Part shown: piece after piece, positions 9,777-34,481 of the stretch
How positions within the stretch are numbered: position 1 is the first letter of the stretch
Layout of the letters: each line of letters begins with the position of its first letter
Assembly: GCA_036323355.1 (NCBI GenBank)
Contig: AP028876.1
Span: forward strand, 992,001 to 1,056,000
Direction of reading: 5' to 3'
Length of the DNA: 64,000 bases
From: Gottschalkiaceae bacterium SANA
GTDB lineage: Bacteria > Bacillota > Clostridia > Tissierellales > GPF-1
Made by a program: the position numbers and the translations under genes
Notes under the pieces: model-generated
The model's database searches: none
What the model was told of the DNA's origin: nothing
Seen by the model: only the letters and a program-made list of their open reading frames with translations

Positions 9777-10526
9777 ATGGCAGTACTTCGAGAAATAATA
9801 GCGATTCTTTATGCAATTATTGGCATCGTATGGATGCGGATTGGACCCATGTGGGCGCCAAAGGTAAAGCGATTGCAGAAAAATGGAAAATTGCAGGAAG
9901 CAGATCAGGTTCTTACTGTTATGTTGAAGCGATTTGTTCGACGACTTATGAAAATTATTGGCATTGAAGTGGAAATTATTGGGGATGAAAACTTGCCCAA
10001 ACATGGAAATTACGTGTTAGTGGGAAACCATCAGGGCCATGCAGACCCATTCTTTCCCTTTCTTTTTATGGATCGTAGCCTTGGGTTTGTTGCAAAGAAG
10101 GAACTTAGAAAATTGCCCATCGTGCCCGGTTTGATGGACTTGTATCATTGTGTTTTAATCGATCGTAAGGATCTGCGTCAGAGTTTGCAAGCGATTCAAG
10201 AGGGTGCAGACTTTGTTCGAGACGGATATCCTATGATGATCTACCCGGAGGGAACTCGTTCAACATCCGAGAAAATGTTGCCTTTTAAATCGGGTGCTAT
10301 GAATCTGGCTTTAAAAGCAAAGGCTGATGTTGTACCGGTTACCATGGTGGGTTCTTACTGGATTCAGCAAAAGGGTAGCAATTTGATTAAGAAGGCAAAG
10401 GTACGTGTGGTGATTGATGCTCCAATTCCTACGGTGGATATGGATCGTAGCGAAAAGAAAGAGTTAAGTGGTCGTGTACGTGGGATCATTGAGCAGAATT
10501 TAGAAAAATATAAGATAGAAAAATAA
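9777..10526 (+). CDS. plsC: 1-acylglycerol-3-phosphate O-acyltransferase (PlsC family)
   Basis: 249 residues from ATG 9777, preceded by AAGGAGGGGG; an in-frame upstream codon at 9735 is rejected because it lies inside the Nudix gene without a site. One N-terminal span (about 4-22) anchors the enzyme. The catalytic HX4D motif is NHQGHAD at 84-90, and YPEGTRS at 156-162 is the acceptor-binding motif III. It should acylate lysophosphatidate to phosphatidate in phospholipid synthesis. Followed at once by a terminator. Confidence 0.9.
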   Translation: MAVLREIIAILYAIIGIVWMRIGPMWAPKVKRLQKNGKLQEADQVLTVMLKRFVRRLMKIIGIEVEIIGDENLPKHGNYVLVGNHQGHADPFFPFLFMDRSLGFVAKKELRKLPIVPGLMDLYHCVLIDRKDLRQSLQAIQEGADFVRDGYPMMIYPEGTRSTSEKMLPFKSGAMNLALKAKADVVPVTMVGSYWIQQKGSNLIKKAKVRVVIDAPIPTVDMDRSEKKELSGRVRGIIEQNLEKYKIEK

Positions 10527-26203: not shown

Positions 26204-26446
26204 AATTCAATAAGAAACATTATTGCACAAGAAGAGTAGCTGAAAGAACTAGGATAGCGAGCGGGGAATGGTGAAAGCCCTGCCTAAAGACTTTTAGTGA
26301 ATGGACTTGTAAAATGACCGACGAATACATAGTCGGATCCGGTTCCCGTCGTTATGGGATAAGCGGGATGCGAGTTGCATCCAACAAAGGTGGCACCGCG
26401 GAGAGATTCGTCCTTAAACCCAATCTGGGTTTAAGGGCTTTTTTTA
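26204..26446 (+). promoter_or_regulatory. T-box riboswitch, tryptophan specifier
   Basis: Stem I apex GGGGAATGGTGAAAGCCC (26262-26280) contains the GGTGNRA-type loop. On its 3' side AGTGAATGGAC (26296-26306) shows the GAA-codon-A layout with codon TGG at 26302-26304, matching tryptophan. The T-box sequence AAAGGTGGCACCGCG (26386-26400) is complete, and the terminator CTTAAACCCA / TGGGTTTAAG with T-run ends at about 26445. Uncharged tRNA-Trp should stabilise the antiterminator and switch on trpS. Confidence 0.95.
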
Positions 26447-27891: not shown

Positions 27892-28626
27892 TTAAAACCC
27901 CTTTAATCGTTGTTTGGTACAGTTCTTCCAGAGATGGTCCTCGGGATCTTGAAACAAGAGCAATACGGATTCATGATTCAAGAGTACGGTTTTTACCTTA
28001 TTGGATAAGGAGACAATCGTGTCTACTGGCAGAGCTAGGCCTTGAAGTGTTTCTACGCGATCGACTCTGGGATGATTGAGCAGATCTTGAACTCTTGTTG
28101 AAGAATGAGTCACCGGGATTTGAAAATTCCCTTTAAATCGCCCGTCATTGCCGGTCAATCGTAATCCAGTACCGGCTAAGGCCCCAATGACTCCGTCGCC
28201 TGTGCCTCCATGTTCAGAAAGGTGGATATCCAATTCTTTGGCCAAGTCATAGGCGTCTGCTTTAGTTAGCACTTGTTTCTTTGCTTTTTTTCCAAATTCC
28301 ATTAGTTTTTGCGGATCTGCTAATGTTTCTTCGTTGATGACGCAGAGGCCTGGGTCTGATCCCTCGGCACTTTCAGTCTTCAGAAAATTAGAGGCAAAAG
28401 CAATAATGGGTTCGAAATGATCTTTGTGGATCGTTGCTCGAAAACACATGGAACTATTGTGCGAGGTATAGGGAATATCTTCGTGAACAAAGAGTTGATG
28501 GCGGGTCACGCCTGAACAGGTTCCCCATCCCTTTTCTTCAATACTTGCCGCGATCGTTTCGCATAGTTCGCCGGTTCCTGCACTGGTCAGATTATCTGTG
28601 TCATCGATGGTCAATAGTATCTTCAT
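27892..28626 (-). CDS. DDTDN-motif protein related to the TiaS N-terminal domain
   Basis: 244 residues from the ATG at 28626, preceded by AAGGGGGCC; an upstream in-frame ATG at 28668 is inside the previous gene. The N-terminus MKILLTIDDTDN (DDTDN at 8-12) followed by GTGEL is the pattern of the TiaS/DUF1743 group, archaeal tRNA-Ile2 agmatinylcytidine synthetases, and of uncharacterised bacterial and methanogen-marker relatives. The rest of TiaS (zinc and nucleic-acid domains) is missing, so tRNA modification is unlikely. SEHGGTGDGVIGALAGTGLR near residue 150 looks like a nucleotide-binding turn. Placed at the end of a probable molybdate/tungstate uptake operon; a role with the metal or its cofactor is only inference. 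Confidence 0.6.
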   Translation of the reverse strand: MKILLTIDDTDNLTSAGTGELCETIAASIEEKGWGTCSGVTRHQLFVHEDIPYTSHNSSMCFRATIHKDHFEPIIAFASNFLKTESAEGSDPGLCVINEETLADPQKLMEFGKKAKKQVLTKADAYDLAKELDIHLSEHGGTGDGVIGALAGTGLRLTGNDGRFKGNFQIPVTHSSTRVQDLLNHPRVDRVETLQGLALPVDTIVSLSNKVKTVLLNHESVLLLFQDPEDHLWKNCTKQRLKGF

Positions 28627-28636
28627 GTCGGCCCCC

Positions 28637-29731
28637 TTATTTTTCATAGCGTGAATTTTTACTGGCAAGAATCAGGTCTAAAAATTCTTCTGAAATATCG
28701 TACTCAAAAAATTCCTTGTAGAAATAACGCGTTTCAACTTTTAGGTCAATGTCTGCAAAATAGTCTGGATACAAGGTTTTTGCTGTCCATAGAATGGCCA
28801 ATGGGGTTTCGATTGAGGTTGGATGGCCCCAACGAGAAATACCAAGTGGCATGCGATAAACGCGGTCATTGATGACGGCATCCAGGGTTTGCCATTGATC
28901 CTTGGTGCGAATGTAGTCGTCAACACCTTCTTCATTTACCAAAATCACGTCTGGATTCCACATCATGATCTGCTCAAGACTGGCGAAGTACTTGTTGTCG
29001 GTAAATTCCAAGGGATCTTCCAGTGAAACATTGATGGCTCCAACAAGCTTCAACCAGTCGGCCGGAAGCGTGCCGGGAGCATCGGTACGTGTTGCTTCAT
29101 TTACGGAATGGTAGATTCTCACTCGTTGGTCCATGGGGATGGTTGCAACGACGGTTTCAACGCGTTCGATACAGTCCTTATAGAAGTCGATATAGCCTTG
29201 GGCTTCTTCTTCTTGATGGAGGGCAATACCCATTTGCTGCACCAGATACAGCTGTTCATCTATGGTGTTGAAGTCGACAACAAAATAGGGAATATGTAAT
29301 TTATCAAATTTTGAGGTTTCTTTTTCAAAGGTCGCGATTTCATTGTCGATAAAAATCAAATCTGGATCTGCATTCAAGACTTCTTCAACATTGATGCTGC
29401 CACTGACCTTGGGAATTACTGATTCTCCGATGGAGGGGCAGATTTCCAAAAGTAGTTTGTCGCGGCGCAGTCCATTGCTGATGGCCGTGATCTTCTCGCC
29501 CTCTCCCAGCATGGTGGTGATATGTCCGGCTACGGCAAAGAGGGTGCCGATGGAATTTATTTCATCGGGAACCGCCACCTGGCGTCCAATGGTGTCGGTT
29601 ACCAGGCTTGTTGCAACAGCAGGTTCTTGGGTTGCGGTTGGTCCGGTTGAACAGGCTGTCAGGCTTAAGCTTGACAGCAGGAGGAGAAATAGAGGAATAA
29701 GGCTTCGTTTTTTTAACCAAGTTTGTCGCAT
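28637..29731 (-). CDS. Substrate-binding lipoprotein, FecB/BtuF/MolA type
   Basis: 364 residues. Signal peptide with lipobox LTAC (Cys27). The mature part is a helical-backbone PeriBP_2 fold: TIGRQVAVPDEI, then INVEEVLNADPDLIFID, NPDVILVNEEG and the C-terminal DRVYRMPLGISRWGHPT. This class carries iron-siderophores, cobalamin, haem or, in Haemophilus MolA, molybdate/tungstate. The Moco-like riboswitch ahead of the operon points to molybdate or tungstate. It overlaps the ATPase gene by 19 bases. Confidence 0.85.
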   Translation of the reverse strand: MRQTWLKKRSLIPLFLLLLSSLSLTACSTGPTATQEPAVATSLVTDTIGRQVAVPDEINSIGTLFAVAGHITTMLGEGEKITAISNGLRRDKLLLEICPSIGESVIPKVSGSINVEEVLNADPDLIFIDNEIATFEKETSKFDKLHIPYFVVDFNTIDEQLYLVQQMGIALHQEEEAQGYIDFYKDCIERVETVVATIPMDQRVRIYHSVNEATRTDAPGTLPADWLKLVGAINVSLEDPLEFTDNKYFASLEQIMMWNPDVILVNEEGVDDYIRTKDQWQTLDAVINDRVYRMPLGISRWGHPTSIETPLAILWTAKTLYPDYFADIDLKVETRYFYKEFFEYDISEEFLDLILASKNSRYEK

Positions 29732-30561
29732 AGAACCATCCTTTCGCTTTCTGATTTTGTCGTTTTAACAGGGACAATGGTTTTCAAACCGCTGGATTGT
29801 CCATTTTGGATCGAAAGGATTCGTGAATTTACACCAAATACCGTTTCGATATTAGATACGGTAAGAACTTCGTCGGGCTGACCAATGTCTAAGATCCTCC
29901 CTTGTTTCATCATGGCAACGCGGGTTGGAACCCCATTACTCTGCAGATAAAAGGCGTGATTGGGAAAATGAGTGGCCATCATAACCGATAAGTTTTGTGT
30001 TTTAATCATCTTGACAATGGTTTCTAAAACCATCAATTCATGAGCAAAGTCTAGGTGAGCTGTGGGCTCATCCATTAAGAGCAGGGGTGTTTTTTGTGCA
30101 AGGGCGCGGGCTAAAATCACCAACTGCCGTTCGCCACCGCTTAGTTGTGTAAAGATTCGATGTTGGAAGGATGATATTCCAATTTCTTCCAAGGCGGCTA
30201 GAGCGATTTGTCTGTCTTCTTCATTTGGGCTGGCGAATACACCCGTATAGGGAGTTCTACCCATAAGTACGAAATCGAGTACTCGATAAGGAAAGGTATT
30301 GCGCCTAGATTGAGGGACATAGCCGATTTGTTTCGCCATCTCCTTGGCTCGTATTTTCCGAAAGTCTTTTCCTTCAAAAAAAATTTTCCCCTTCTGCATG
30401 GGATGAGCGCTGATCAAATGATCAAGGAGGGTTGTTTTTCCGCATCCGTTTGGGCCAACCAGACAAAGCACTTCTCCCGTATCCATATGGAGAGAAATAT
30501 CTTGAAGGGCATCCAATTCTGGGTAGGCAAAGGATAGGTCTTGAATTTCAATTAAATGCAT
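29713..30561 (-). CDS. ABC importer ATPase, FecE/BtuD/MolC type
   Basis: 282 residues from ATG 30561 (GGAGGCGG nine bases upstream; ATG 30567 is too close to that site). Walker A GPNGCGKTT at 36-44, Q-loop in GYVPQSRRN, signature LSGGERQLV, Walker B LLLMDEPTAHLD, switch MMATHFPNH. The Q-loop and LDFAHELMVL sequences are typical of FepC/BtuD ATPases. About 40 extra residues follow the core. It powers the FecCD-type permease encoded just upstream, with which it overlaps by one base. Confidence 0.92.
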   Translation of the reverse strand: MHLIEIQDLSFAYPELDALQDISLHMDTGEVLCLVGPNGCGKTTLLDHLISAHPMQKGKIFFEGKDFRKIRAKEMAKQIGYVPQSRRNTFPYRVLDFVLMGRTPYTGVFASPNEEDRQIALAALEEIGISSFQHRIFTQLSGGERQLVILARALAQKTPLLLMDEPTAHLDFAHELMVLETIVKMIKTQNLSVMMATHFPNHAFYLQSNGVPTRVAMMKQGRILDIGQPDEVLTVSNIETVFGVNSRILSIQNGQSSGLKTIVPVKTTKSESERMVLCDKLG

Positions 30562-31598
30562 TACCATCCGCCTCCTTTGGTTCGTTTCAATAAGTAAACA
30601 TAAAAGGGTCCACCGACCAGGGCTGTCAAGATGCTTAAGGGCAATTCACTGCCTGTTAGCATGCGACCGGCATTATCGATTAGAATTAAGAAGCAAGCGC
30701 CGATGGACATGCTGGCAGGAATTAAATAACGGTTGTCATTGCCCACAATCATACGTCCGATATGGGGAATAACGAGACCGATCCATCCGATAATTCCACT
30801 GACGCTGACCGCACCTGCAGTTGCCAAGGTCGTAAAGATGACAACGGCTATTTTGTATAATCGTGTATTTAGTCCCAAAGATCGGGCTTCCTTGTCGCCT
30901 AAGGATAAGACATTGATTCGCCATCGCAAGGCAAAAAGCCCCAGGGTACCAAGTAGAATCGGGATTAGTGAAATCGAAATTTCGCGGTAATCTGCATTGG
31001 CCAAGCTGCCCATCAGCCAAAATACGATGGTAGGCAATTCATCAAAGGGATCGGCGACATATTTCAAAAATGAAATCAATGCCGAAAAGATCGAAGAAAC
31101 GATGACGCCGCCCAAGACCAACATAATATTGGGTACTGTGCTGTAGATTCGACCGATGAGATAGCTGAAAAATACAGCGATCAAACTAAAGACAAAGGAC
31201 AGCACATAGATCATGACCACATTGTCGAAGAGAATGATTCCAAGGGCTGCGCCAAATCCTGCACCGGAGCTAACCCCAAGAATGCCTGAATCTACCAGTG
31301 GATTATGGAAGAGACCTTGCAGGGAAGCGCCACTGACTGCCAGTGCTCCACCAACCAATGCACCTAGTATGGCGCGGGGAAGGCGAATATCCCAGACAAC
31401 AGTCTGGGTAATGGCTGGCACATCTACGGGGATTCCCGTAATTTTGCTCCAAACGGTATCGATCACCATTGGTGCTGAAACAGGATATCGGCCGATAAAC
31501 ATGGTGATCACGATAAAGACAAGAGGCATAAGTACAAAAGATACGGATAATAAGCCATGTAGGGTTTTGTTTTTTTGAGAAAGTTCCACGCCTTTCAT
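30561..31598 (-). CDS. ABC importer permease, FecCD/BtuC/MolB type
   Basis: 345 residues with about ten hydrophobic segments, the size of BtuC/FecD/MolB monomers. Landmarks are LPRAILGALVGGALAVSGASLQG (split here for length: LPRAILGALVGG near 75), NPLVDSGILGVSSGAG, and the C-terminal GWIGLVIPHIGRMIVGNDNR, the loop that contacts the ATPase. The ATG at 31598 overlaps the stop of the preceding gene (TAATG), so translation is probably coupled. Confidence 0.92.
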   Translation of the reverse strand: MKGVELSQKNKTLHGLLSVSFVLMPLVFIVITMFIGRYPVSAPMVIDTVWSKITGIPVDVPAITQTVVWDIRLPRAILGALVGGALAVSGASLQGLFHNPLVDSGILGVSSGAGFGAALGIILFDNVVMIYVLSFVFSLIAVFFSYLIGRIYSTVPNIMLVLGGVIVSSIFSALISFLKYVADPFDELPTIVFWLMGSLANADYREISISLIPILLGTLGLFALRWRINVLSLGDKEARSLGLNTRLYKIAVVIFTTLATAGAVSVSGIIGWIGLVIPHIGRMIVGNDNRYLIPASMSIGACFLILIDNAGRMLTGSELPLSILTALVGGPFYVYLLKRTKGGGW

Positions 31599-32158
31599 TA
31601 TTTTCTCTTATATCGTTGGAATCCAATGAAAGCAATGGCTGCAAGGGCGATCAGACCCATCCATAGCAATCCATTATTTGAAGAAGGAGGAGTGGGTTCT
31701 TGGTCAGTATGTTCAATGACGACTTCGCCTCCAATGGTTGTGAAAGAAACTTCTAGCGCTTCTTCCAAGGCAGTTCCGCTCTTTGAGGTTAAATCCTTGC
31801 TAATTTTTACGATATAGGTTGTTCCTTCCAATAAAGTGTTTCTTGGTCGTATGTAGAGATAATCACGTTTTTCACGATCGACCTGGTCATCCGCCATAAA
31901 CAAGTCAAAGGAAACTTGATTTCCATCTTGATCTACGAATTCGATACAGGTTTTGTTATTTTCGGATACCTTCATGTTGACGACATTCTTTGAAAACATC
32001 AGCTCAATTTCCTCAAGATCCGTTGAAATGTCAACTGCACCATTTTCGGGACTGGAAGATTCGAGAGTAAGAGGCTCGCCATTTGCCGCAAATCCAGTGC
32101 TGGCTAGTAGGCAGACCAAAATGAGTAGACCGGTTGCTGAGATGATTTTTTTCTTCAT
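31598..32158 (-). CDS. Membrane-anchored surface protein with one Ig-like (Big_5/SbsA-type) domain
   Basis: 186 residues: signal peptide (1-24, cleavage near FAAN), one Ig-like domain about 30-142 with the Big_5 pattern ESSSPENGAVDISTDLEEI, LMFSKNV and EALEVSFTT, a proline/serine linker (PTPPSSNN) and a C-terminal span (163-180) with a basic tail RYKRK. No LPXTG motif. It would sit on the outer membrane face. As first gene of the metal-uptake operon it may help present substrate or hold the binding protein; that is inference from position only. Confidence 0.75.
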   Translation of the reverse strand: MKKKIISATGLLILVCLLASTGFAANGEPLTLESSSPENGAVDISTDLEEIELMFSKNVVNMKVSENNKTCIEFVDQDGNQVSFDLFMADDQVDREKRDYLYIRPRNTLLEGTTYIVKISKDLTSKSGTALEEALEVSFTTIGGEVVIEHTDQEPTPPSSNNGLLWMGLIALAAIAFIGFQRYKRK

Positions 32159-32194
32159 GATTGCGTTCTCCTTTTAATTATCGTCAGAAACAGA

Positions 32195-32345
32195 AAATCC
32201 CCCTTGAAAGGAGGAATGATAGCAAACGAATAATGCTAGAAATTCTCCTTTCCAAATGGGAGGCTAAAAGGTTTCCCTTGTAACCCAGCGGTCCAATTAC
32301 CGTGGCATTGCGGTAGGTTAGAGGACTCGGAGTACTAACGATATA
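32195..32345 (-). promoter_or_regulatory. Molybdenum/tungsten cofactor (Moco/Tuco)-like riboswitch
   Basis: Read on the minus strand, the leader holds, in order, ACTCCGAG (32333-32326), TTGGACCGCTGGGTTA, the GNRA hairpin AAGG-GAAA-CCTT (32279-32268), GCCTCCCATTTGG and AAAGGAG (about 32251-32245). As I recall the Moco motif, these blocks and their order match it. Pairing supports it: TAACC with GGTTA, TACCG with CGGTA. The 3' AAAGGAG can pair either with CTCC of the aptamer or with CTCCTTT (about 32213-32207), which can itself pair with the GGGGG that follows: a plausible switch. Confidence 0.65.
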
Positions 32346-32623
32346 TGATTAAGTATAGTATACAATAAGTAGTAGGTGTCTGTGCACAAAAACGAGAAAA
32401 TTCAAGTACTTTTGAATCAAGTGTTTTATATAATTTTGAATTCATTGCTTTTGTTAAGAATAAATGTTCCTATTTCGTCTATATAGGGTGCCATCGATCG
32501 ATCAAATCGTAGTTGAAGAGGATAAAGGAATTGACGAACTGACTTGTACAAGATAGGGTATAGGTGCTGAAATAAGTGACGAAAAGTAATATTTTATAAA
32601 TGGGATTTTAAAGGAGAGGCGAA
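32346..32623. other. Divergent intergenic region
   Basis: It must hold the minus-strand promoter for the riboswitch operon; TATACT-like -10 sequences occur near 32352-32365 on that strand. On the plus strand TTGACG at 32531 is a possible -35 for the PHP gene with a weak -10. CGATCGATCGAT at about 32493 is a short self-complementary run. Otherwise AT-rich with no gene seen. Confidence 0.4.
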
Positions 32624-33337
32624 TTGAAACTAGTAATGGATTTACACACACATACCGTGGCGAGTAGCCATGCCTTTAGTACCTTGAAGGAAAATATTGA
32701 AGCGGCAGCTGAAAAAGGACTAGTAGTAATGGGAACCAGCGACCATGGCGGCGGCATGCCGGGGGCGGCACACCCCTATATGTTTTCGAATTACCGTGTG
32801 GTGCGACCTCAAATAATGGGGGTTCGAATTTTACGTGGGATCGAAGCGAATATTGTCAATTATGAGGGAGAGATTGATATTACACCATTTGTCTTAAGTA
32901 AGGTGGAATATGTAATTGCCAGCATTCATCAACCTTGTTATACCATTGGTTCTAGGGATGAGAATACCAATGCTTTTATTCATGCCATGAAAAATCCTCA
33001 TGTAAATATTATTGGACATTCTGACGATGATCGCATTCCCGTTGATTTTGATCGTTTGGCCAAGGCTGCCAAGGAAACCGGAGTTGCCTTGGAATTGAAC
33101 AACTCTTCCCTGGTAGCGAATTCGGTTCGAAAAAACGGTAGAGTAAATGCAAAGGCGATGTTGATTGCGGCAAAAAAACATGGTGCGCAGATTCTTCTTG
33201 GTAGTGATGCACATATTTACTTGGATGTTGGACGATTCGATGAAGCCCTTGAACTAATAAAAGAAGTAAACTTTCCAGAAAAACTGATTATTAATACGAG
33301 TGTAGAGAAGTTGAACAAACTGATCAATCATGAATAA
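32624..33337 (+). CDS. PHP domain phosphoesterase (YcdX-like)
   Basis: 237 residues starting at TTG 32624, chosen because AAGGAGAGG lies just before it and MKLVMDLHTHT fits the family N-terminus; ATG 32636 is too far from the site. Metal-binding motifs of the PHP superfamily are clear: DLHTHT, GTSDHGG, a GHSDD segment and GSDAHIY near the end. YcdX-type enzymes are zinc phosphatases; substrate is unknown. Monocistronic with its own terminator. Confidence 0.85.
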   Translation: MKLVMDLHTHTVASSHAFSTLKENIEAAAEKGLVVMGTSDHGGGMPGAAHPYMFSNYRVVRPQIMGVRILRGIEANIVNYEGEIDITPFVLSKVEYVIASIHQPCYTIGSRDENTNAFIHAMKNPHVNIIGHSDDDRIPVDFDRLAKAAKETGVALELNNSSLVANSVRKNGRVNAKAMLIAAKKHGAQILLGSDAHIYLDVGRFDEALELIKEVNFPEKLIINTSVEKLNKLINHE

Positions 33338-33340
33338 ATG

Positions 33341-33373
33341 AGGCAGGCGCGAGAATTTGGTGCCTGTTTTTTT
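33341..33373 (+). terminator. Terminator of the PHP gene
   Basis: CAGGC / GCCTG arms around a 13-base loop followed by seven T. Confidence 0.65.
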
Positions 33374-33479
33374 ATGGAAAATCCCGAAGCAAGAGGGCCC
33401 ACCTTTTTTATATGGAGTGAAATATGGTAGTATAGATTCAAAGAATGCGGCAAACGGTTCGCAACGTATGGGAGACGCG

Positions 33480-34481
33480 ATGAAGAAGCAGAGATATAGA
33501 AACTTTCGATTTACGAAATTCATATTGGCGGTCTTGTTGATTGCCTTGGTTAGCTATATAGGTTTCATCACTGATCAAATTCGATCATCTGAAACGGGTT
33601 CAGGAAACCTCTTTAAAAAAATACCTGAACAGCAGTATGTGATTATTACGGATGATGAGGAGTCGTATGTCCATGTAAGATTCATGGAAGGAGTTAAGGC
33701 TGCAAGTGAGAGTCTGAATGTCGTTGTGAACATTGAATCTATCAAGGACAGTAGCAATGAAGATGAAATTGAAGATGCCTTTAAAGCCAGCATGTACGCG
33801 CATGTGGATGGTATTATTCTTAAACTCACTAATAATGACAGGGCGGAAGCCTACATTAAGCAAAGTGAAGCAGGGGGGATTCCTGTTGTTGCTGTTGGAA
33901 ATGATTCGATTACAAGTGAGAGAAGTGCCTATATTGGAACCAATAAGTATAACTTGGGTTTGAGTGTGGGAGAGCTGCTTTTATCGGATGAGGAAGCAGA
34001 AAATGTATTGATCATTTTTGACTTTAACTACAATGATAAGAAGGGTGCTGCCACCAACAACTATTTGAATGGGCTTTTATCTGTGATGAATGAAATCGAT
34101 GGACGTAGTATTCAGACCTTGTTTTTAGAAGAAGATCAGCGAATTGAATCAATGATCAAGTCGGTTTTGGATCAGAATAAACCAGATTATATGATTGCAA
34201 CAGATCCGATTAACTCTTTACGTGTGACGAAGACTTTGATTGACCTCAATGAGATCGGTAATGTGAAAATAATAGCCAGTAGTCAGCACCCTGATGTTGT
34301 GAATTACTTGAAGAAAGGTACCATCGTGGCATCCGCTGTAGAGGATTATCAGTTGATTGGCAATGGGGCAATTCAAACGATCTATGAGTTGGGCCACCAA
34401 CGTTCAGCTTCAGCATATCGAGCGATTCCTTTCGAGATTATTGGGCAAGAAACGGTAGGTGAACGCGATGATCTTGAATAA
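33480..34481 (+). CDS. Membrane-tethered sugar-binding sensor protein 1 (XylFII-like)
   Basis: 333 residues from ATG 33480 (GGGAG six bases before). One uncleaved-looking N-terminal span (about 14-32) without lipobox, then a divergent type I periplasmic binding fold (Peripla_BP_4): VHVRFMEGVKAASESL, DGIILKLTN, GGIPVVAVGND, AYIGTNKYNLG. It overlaps the LytS-type kinase gene by 14 bases. In Clostridium beijerinckii a similar protein, XylFII, binds xylose and signals through LytS/YesN to activate the xylFGH importer; the same arrangement is seen here, so I infer a sensor role rather than transport. Confidence 0.75.
   Translation: MKKQRYRNFRFTKFILAVLLIALVSYIGFITDQIRSSETGSGNLFKKIPEQQYVIITDDEESYVHVRFMEGVKAASESLNVVVNIESIKDSSNEDEIEDAFKASMYAHVDGIILKLTNNDRAEAYIKQSEAGGIPVVAVGNDSITSERSAYIGTNKYNLGLSVGELLLSDEEAENVLIIFDFNYNDKKGAATNNYLNGLLSVMNEIDGRSIQTLFLEEDQRIESMIKSVLDQNKPDYMIATDPINSLRVTKTLIDLNEIGNVKIIASSQHPDVVNYLKKGTIVASAVEDYQLIGNGAIQTIYELGHQRSASAYRAIPFEIIGQETVGERDDLE

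Follow-up and report, generated by a model that had tools for sequence, protein, structure and literature searches.

A five-gene operon for a FecCD-type ABC importer on the minus strand of the window (the whole 64,000-nucleotide stretch of DNA analysed here) is preceded by a riboswitch of the Moco/Tuco class. We consider it likely that this RNA, which lacks the P3 stem, senses Tuco and acts as an OFF switch on a Mol-type tungsten/molybdenum importer. The aptamer, the terminator, the gene families and the recurrent linkage between the RNA and the operon were computed directly. A role of the operon in the uptake of tungsten or molybdenum is well supported, and we infer the transport itself.

The aptamer and its expression platform

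A preliminary description of this DNA had recognised in the leader the motifs of a molybdenum/tungsten cofactor riboswitch. All of the motifs quoted there are found on the minus strand of positions 32195-32345 and in the order given, and the class assignment held when an Infernal search (cmscan of positions 31000-33500) was run: the leader matches RF01055 over 32344..32229(-) with 67.1 bits (E 2.2e-15; gathering score 36), and the model is covered completely (1-135). Cobalamin or another riboswitch class can be ruled out, as the search of this region gave no Rfam match to such a class up to E 5. The sole other match up to this threshold, to ST7-AS2 with 16.6 bits against a gathering score of 80, is a chance match. 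A scan of the whole window gave two Rfam matches, the RF01055 aptamer and a T-box leader (RF00230, 111.3 bits), which is located before trpS at 26214-26418(+).

The window aptamer contains a GAAA-capped P4 and a CTCC/GGAG P1, the latter being the pairing of AAAGGAG with the aptamer CTCC that had been proposed. The P3 stem is absent, as no stem is found between P2 and P4. For a comparison of folds, 41 RNAs were aligned, namely the window RNA, the three other copies from its own genome, seven RNAs from before homologous operons and 30 from a 150-genome sample of the order, the last being the best-scoring loci of that sample and not a random draw. P3 is missing in all 41 members. Among the 29 consensus pairs, 23 show a change on both sides, a number that was reached in none of 500 shuffles, and the covariation score is 0.547, as opposed to 0.190 for the shuffles and no more than 0.162 after sliding of the partner. 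The P3-less fold is thus supported by covariation. With P1, P2, P4 and P5 showing covariation, a GNRA-capped P4, and a position upstream of molybdenum/tungsten cofactor genes for the own-genome copies and for homologous operons within tup/moa clusters, the window RNA is certainly a member of the known Moco/Tuco class. In the accessible text of Regulski et al. (2008, PMC2408646), the published RNAs have the same P1, P5 and GAAA-capped P4 and include the P3-less subtype, and some of them likewise carry an intrinsic terminator.

Downstream of the aptamer, three overlapping terminator-like sites were detected in the region 32100-32640, compared to 0.2 expected from shuffles, and the terminator-like hairpin with its T-rich tail starts approximately 30 nt past P1. 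Terminators are visible in the leaders of relatives too. The preliminary description had also suggested that AAAGGAG could alternatively pair with a downstream CTCCTTT, and such a pairing is indeed present and energetically plausible: GAAAGGAG is perfectly complementary over 8 nt to CTCCTTTC in the 5' arm of the terminator, and, when folded without constraints, the leader adopts the antiterminator form (-43.3 kcal/mol), compared to -40.2 kcal/mol for the aptamer plus terminator that results when P1 is forced. When the sequence downstream was shuffled 20,000 times with its dinucleotides preserved, 3.9% of the shuffles also offered the P1 3' strand eight perfectly matched nucleotides, and we therefore regard the antiterminator pairing as suggestive, but not compelling. 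As a general rule for the family it is weak, with six or more antiterminator pairs in 12 of 16 scored leaders versus 8.7 expected, which is modestly beyond composition; these 16 come from a set of 24, of which the terminator finder left eight unscored, missing hairpins with long loops (L040, L044).

As the fold with P1 forced gives the terminator, a ligand that holds P1 should favour termination, and we therefore predict an OFF switch of the operon, with a direction of control that would follow from the two folds. When the ligand is bound, P1 (CTCC/GGAG) would be held, CTCCTTTC would remain free, the terminator at 32198-32215 would form and the operon would be off. When the ligand is absent, GAAAGGAG would pair with CTCCTTTC, the terminator would be broken and the operon would be read. 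Two promoter-like sites were found compared to 1.6 expected, and the weak site just upstream of the aptamer is thus only a candidate. The coordinates of all features are given in Table 1.

Table 1. Features of the riboswitch and importer operon in the window, and loci in other genomes in which the RNA lies directly before gene 5.
Feature	Position	Strand	Basis
Weak promoter-like site (TGCACA-18-TATACT), immediately ahead of the aptamer	32357..32386	-	promoter scan
P3-less Moco/Tuco-class aptamer (RF01055)	32229..32344	-	covariance match and covariation
P1 5' strand CTCC	32329..32332	-	fold and RNAalifold consensus
GAAAGGAG: P1 3' strand (32245-32248) and alternative antiterminator strand	32245..32252	-	leader folding
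CTCCTTTC: antiterminator partner overlapping the terminator 5' arm	32206..32213	-	leader folding
Intrinsic-terminator-like hairpin, followed by TTTTCTGTTT	32198..32215	-	terminator scan
Ribosome-binding site AAAAGGAG ahead of the first ATG	32168..32175	-	read from the sequence
Gene 1: one Big_5 (bacterial Ig-like) domain	31598..32158	-	Pfam PF13205, E 2.1e-13
Gene 2: FecCD-type permease	30561..31598	-	PF01032, E 1.6e-84
Gene 3: ABC ATPase	29713..30567	-	Pfam; MolC HI1470 2nq2_C, E 3.5e-42, rank 1
Gene 4: substrate-binding protein (Peripla_BP_2), MolA-like fold	28637..29731	-	Pfam, profile, model
Gene 5: 244-aa TiaS kinase-like / methanogenesis marker 11-like protein	27892..28626	-	NCBIfam, model
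RNA directly before gene 5	L100-L103, L107, L127, L130, L140, L141, L144, L145, L154		

The importer genes and the TiaS-like protein

The operon is composed of five minus-strand genes coding for a Big_5 protein, a FecCD permease, an ATPase, a binding protein and a TiaS-like protein. Among solved structures, the closest relative of the permease is MolB HI1471 (2nq2_A, E 3.4e-73), followed by HmuU (1.5e-48) and BtuC (3e-40). Its top match in NCBIfam is BtuC, far below the cut-off of that family. The binding protein, for which a lipoprotein signal was read by eye, matches 4ovk first (E 2.5e-41) and then MolA 3psa (E 2.3e-33) when its profile is compared with solved chains, and its AlphaFold2 model (mean pLDDT 92.3) superimposes on MolA 3psa with a Z of 32.0 and an rmsd of 2.3 over 300 residues. 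MolA is not singled out by the structure search, being tied with 4ovk and 4hn9 (Z 32.4 for 4ovk, 32.0 for 4hn9 and 32.0 for 3psa). As MolB and MolC are the best solved matches and the MolA fold is shared, the importer is of the Mol type by sequence.

Using an alignment of 33 binding proteins (that of genome G029, which is split by a stop at L043 5899-6890, was left out), we found ten near-invariant residues, H70, R90, D91, H208, E212, R215, W226, R300, H303 and E308. These were hand-picked as possible ligand contacts and are not kept at the aligned positions of MolA, where R90, for example, is replaced by a lysine. Other invariant positions, D46, N114, W301, G302 and P322, are kept in MolA (alignment read by eye). 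Due to the differences at the ten picked residues, the likeness to MolABC does not settle that plain molybdate or tungstate is the cargo. The importer had been described as sharing the architecture of the Haemophilus MolABC system; this stands for the permease, the ATPase and the fold of the binding protein, and does not extend to the ten picked residues. The fold and transporter type thus agree with Mol, whereas the ligand site may differ.

According to the accessible part of Rice et al. (2014, PMC4031551), Haemophilus MolBC-A moves molybdate, MolA binds both molybdate and tungstate, and the regulation of molABC is poorly understood. Compared to the Haemophilus influenzae system (HI1470-HI1472; 2nq2, 3psa), with which it shares the best solved matches of permease and ATPase and the fold of the binding protein, the window operon has two extra genes and is under riboswitch control. 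The targets of RF01055 named in the available text of PMC2408646 are molybdate transporters, moa genes and tup/wtp homologues, whereas the RNA is found here before the genes of a FecCD/Mol-type importer that is accompanied by Big_5 and TiaS-like proteins. These first and last genes of the operon were outside the account given in the preliminary description. The Big_5 protein has a signal peptide and a C-terminal membrane anchor (read by eye), and its gene is conserved in homologous operons. At two loci (L085 2890-5967 and L113 2021-6046), large surface proteins are encoded between the riboswitch and the importer, with SLH and Big_5 domains in L085 and an S-layer-like appearance in L113 (by eye), and these could form the part of the uptake system that lies in the cell wall.

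No Pfam family matches gene 5. In NCBIfam, it matches TIGR03280 (methanogenesis marker 11, E 6.9e-13) and TiaS (E 2.1e-8), both below the curated cut-offs, with 33.1 bits against 600 in the case of TiaS. The model of the protein (pLDDT 91.6) aligns with TiaS 4rvz with a Z of 22.4 and an rmsd of 1.8 over 154 residues, and the structure matches to proteins other than TiaS have a Z of 7.5 or below. All 42 aligned homologues share D8, D9, D11 and T18, and a TiaS chain has the same letters at the corresponding positions, of which that of T18 presumably matters. The N-terminal domain, including the IDDTD motif and T18, is thus shared with the archaeal tRNA(Ile2) agmatidine synthetase TiaS; gene 5 codes for 244 residues compared to 420, only the first domain matches, and the gene-5 family sits in bacterial tungsten/molybdenum gene clusters. 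TiaS has a kinase domain according to the accessible portion of PMC11938285. We propose that gene 5 encodes a TiaS-like and probably ATP-using protein. Among the matches listed in a literature search for methanogenesis marker 11, all are on matrix metalloproteinase 11. At L138 (8450-10765), three tandem copies of gene 5 follow one importer, and the middle copy has diverged in the conserved motifs.

Linkage of the riboswitch and the operon across genomes

Close relatives of the binding protein (E < 1e-50) are encoded in nine of 150 genomes of the order, including that of the window. RF01055 is found upstream of the operon in 8/8 evaluable loci of this sample, which represent four families; the sequence of G113 (L045) ends inside the operon. 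At the next-best, more distant FecCD loci (L046-L048), the RNA was found in none of three.

A scan of named genomes for gene 5 gave 435 relatives, and 80 of the loci were retained. The importer operon is present, completely or in part, at 31 of them and missing from 49; L127 was dropped from an initial 32 operon loci, as its FecCD and binding proteins are only 41% and 28% alike and are located approximately 7 kb away. R1, a covariance model built from the 41 RNAs, matches 31 of the 80 gene-5 loci at E < 0.01. When loci with 500 nt of upstream sequence or with the RNA in view are taken as evaluable and each place is counted once (L079, L080 and L081 duplicate L038, L043 and L039, respectively), the RNA is located in front of the operon in 17 of 31 loci, and the other 14 have no match to the riboswitch model. 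Five loci (L084, L129, L134, L136 and L156) were excluded from this count, since the sequence ahead of their first operon gene is shorter than 500 nt; L044, with 411 nt, was kept as its RNA was seen, and the count is 16/30 without it. All of the 6 evaluable loci that are outside the Firmicutes by record title (Desulfobacteraceae, Thermodesulfobacteriota, Desulfobacterium and Kiritimatiellales) have the operon without a preceding RNA, and the pairing is thus confined to Firmicutes among the loci examined.

Tandem copies of the RNA precede the operon at L087, L088, L099 and L108. In L087, two RNAs are followed by two Big_5 genes, the FecCD, ATPase and binding protein genes and gene 5, and then by a third RNA and a block of tupA, tupB, an ATPase gene, moaA, moaC, MOSC and mobB. 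Operons without the RNA are located inside moa, moe or tup clusters at L089, L114 and L121. The riboswitch class is known. Among the papers listed in our literature search, as far as their texts were accessible, there is no account of its recurrent use in Firmicutes on a Mol-type FecCD operon with Big_5 and TiaS-like genes.

Ligand of the riboswitch and cargo of the importer

Four copies of RF01055 are present in the genome from which the window is taken (3.49 Mb, one contig). Besides the copy described above, one precedes tupA, tupB and a tupC-like ATPase gene followed by moeA, moaA, moaC and mogA, one a ferredoxin and an aldehyde ferredoxin oxidoreductase gene, and one an ECF operon with MobB; the tup, moe, moa, mog and mob names were given from the sequences by eye, with PF06463 confirming moaA and PF01314 the oxidoreductases. 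Regulski et al. (2008) argued, in the accessible text of PMC2408646, that P3-less members are Tuco sensors, since 17 of 19 organisms with such RNAs have tungsten genes. The P3-less form of the window RNA and the tungsten genes behind two of the three other own-genome copies favour the Tuco side, as does the absence of a ModA over the cut-off from the window's genome in combination with RNA copies at tungsten genes. We therefore infer that the ligand is Tuco rather than Moco, and the leader would most likely sense this tungsten form of the pyranopterin cofactor.

It is less probable that the RNA senses Moco, the molybdenum form of the cofactor, and that the importer is a molybdate transporter. 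The RNA belongs to the same Rfam family, and in the text of PMC2408646 available to us P3-less RNAs were assigned a preference for Tuco on the basis of their gene context and not of binding. In that same part of the study, reporters of the E. coli Moco RNA respond to Moco and not to added tungstate. The absent P3, the own-genome copies before tupA and the aldehyde oxidoreductase gene and the lack of a ModA over the cut-off in this genome speak against a Moco sensor. In addition, a P3-bearing RNA precedes a different FecCD importer: in G069 (L167 4522-10058), an RF01055 copy with a P3 stem (9930-10058(-)), which looks clearly different from the P3-less members, lies directly before a distant FecCD permease, ATPase and binding protein (the permease 38.5% and the binding protein 27% like those of the window), followed by moeA- and mobB-like genes. 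In G137 (L168 6097-10728), a P3-bearing copy behind the binding protein gene of a distant FecCD operon precedes MobA-like (by eye), mobB-like and molybdopterin-oxidoreductase-like (by eye) genes. As both loci were chosen for their RNA, they are examples and do not give a rate. They point to a use of FecCD importers for molybdenum or tungsten in more than one lineage, with a P3 difference that follows the metal, as proposed by Regulski and colleagues.

Under the preferred reading of a Tuco-sensing leader, the type II, FecCD-fold ABC importer would bring in tungsten and/or molybdenum, most likely as an oxyanion, and the imported metal would serve aldehyde oxidoreductases and other pyranopterin enzymes, with the surface Big_5 protein and the TiaS-like protein accompanying the importer. 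A need for the cofactor is visible in the 37 operon-bearing genomes: tungsten-type enzymes (AFOR_C) are encoded in 35 and MoaA in 36, the exception being G040, an 85%-complete assembly. Obligate cofactor salvage, which predicted operons in genomes without MoaA, thus failed as an explanation. A TupA relative (E 1e-15 or better) is present in 28 of the 37, sometimes in the next operon, and a second tungstate importer therefore looks redundant unless its cargo differs. ModA and WtpA were found over the cut-off in 26 and 3 genomes, respectively.

TupA, ModA over the cut-off and WtpA are all absent from five of the 37 genomes, G014, G029, G040, G070 and G090, and TupB is absent from the same five (12 of the 37 genomes searched). 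Three of them, G014, G029 and G090, are at least 98% complete. G014 and G029 are sister species of the window's genome, each 98% complete, which have kept the importer locus and the riboswitch; tupABC is missing between the riboswitch and moeA with both flanks remaining (L159 and L160 versus L006 and L007). As a clean natural experiment this pair is weakened, since G014 retains the ECF/MobB operon (L161) and the assembly of G029 shows a stop that divides the binding-protein gene of the importer into two frames (198 + 128 aa). No match to the PF00174 protein of the ECF operon was found in G029 (nine genomes searched). G090 has the PF00174 protein and a second, more distant FecCD importer at L163 (14683-18004), which lies beside a helix-turn-helix protein that we take to be ModE-like.

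FecCD importers carry siderophores, haem and B12. It is conceivable, if doubtful, that the importer described here carries an organic tungsten or molybdenum species, either a metallophore complex or a pyranopterin (MPT, Moco/Tuco), and that gene 5 processes this cargo in the cytoplasm. The differences from MolA at the ten picked residues would be in line with such a cargo, as would the gene content of loci with gene 5 alone. In 44 of the 49 operon-less loci, the flanking genes were clustered and each cluster named from one Pfam-searched member: a TonB-dependent receptor is present at 24, a CbiQ-type T protein at 20, a small S-like membrane protein (an ECF S component by eye, without a Pfam family) at 19 and an ABC ATPase of a mixed ECF/other cluster at 29. 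A TonB receptor suggests a cargo that is too bulky or too scarce for porins. A Moco-class RNA is located directly before gene 5 in 12 of these 44 loci, all of which are, by record title, from Geobacter-type bacteria or other Desulfuromonadales/Deltaproteobacteria, and several of the Geobacter-type clusters continue with genes for an ECF transporter and a TonB-dependent receptor. For Pelobacter carbinolicus, TonB channels near molybdopterin riboswitches have been noted and metal transport suggested (PMC3543383); the accessible part of that report covers outer-membrane channels and does not name a FecCD importer or gene 5.

The riboswitch-controlled ECF operon of the window's own genome (L005 6108-14415; C1:1586107-1594414) also bears on an organic cargo. 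It codes for an FMN-binding protein, two PF00174 (molybdopterin-binding-domain) proteins, ECF S, A, A and T components, a phosphodiesterase/nucleotide pyrophosphatase-family protein, MobB and an APH-like protein, and would be a candidate for either the salvage of pyranopterins or the uptake of tungsten. At L089, most of this block is contiguous with the importer operon. Against an organic cargo, the closest solved relatives belong to a molybdate/tungstate system, and with MoaA in nearly all operon-bearing genomes at most perhaps the one 85%-complete genome would depend on salvage. One might speculate, although this is unlikely, that bacteria salvage organic tungsten or molybdenum species (a metallophore complex or the pyranopterin cofactor) under the control of the cofactor riboswitch by means of a shared TiaS-like processor, with the Mol-type importer in many Firmicutes and with TonB and ECF components in Geobacter-type loci. 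That the importer takes up an iron-siderophore, haem or cobalamin and that the cofactor control is incidental is very improbable: the FecCD and Peripla_BP_2 families include such transporters and BtuC is the top NCBIfam match, but the operon is recurrently linked to RF01055 and to tup, moa and moe genes, and among solved chains the E value of MolB is lower than those of HmuU and BtuC by over 20 orders of magnitude.

Taken together, a FecCD-type importer is tied to tungsten/molybdenum cofactor control across a range of Firmicutes, and its pairing with a riboswitch makes a poorly known metal-uptake system testable. Since gene 5 is located behind this RNA in Geobacter-type bacteria as well, the TiaS/methanogenesis-marker-11-like family gains a physiological setting. 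This raises the question of whether bacteria take up tungsten or molybdenum as anything but the free oxyanion.
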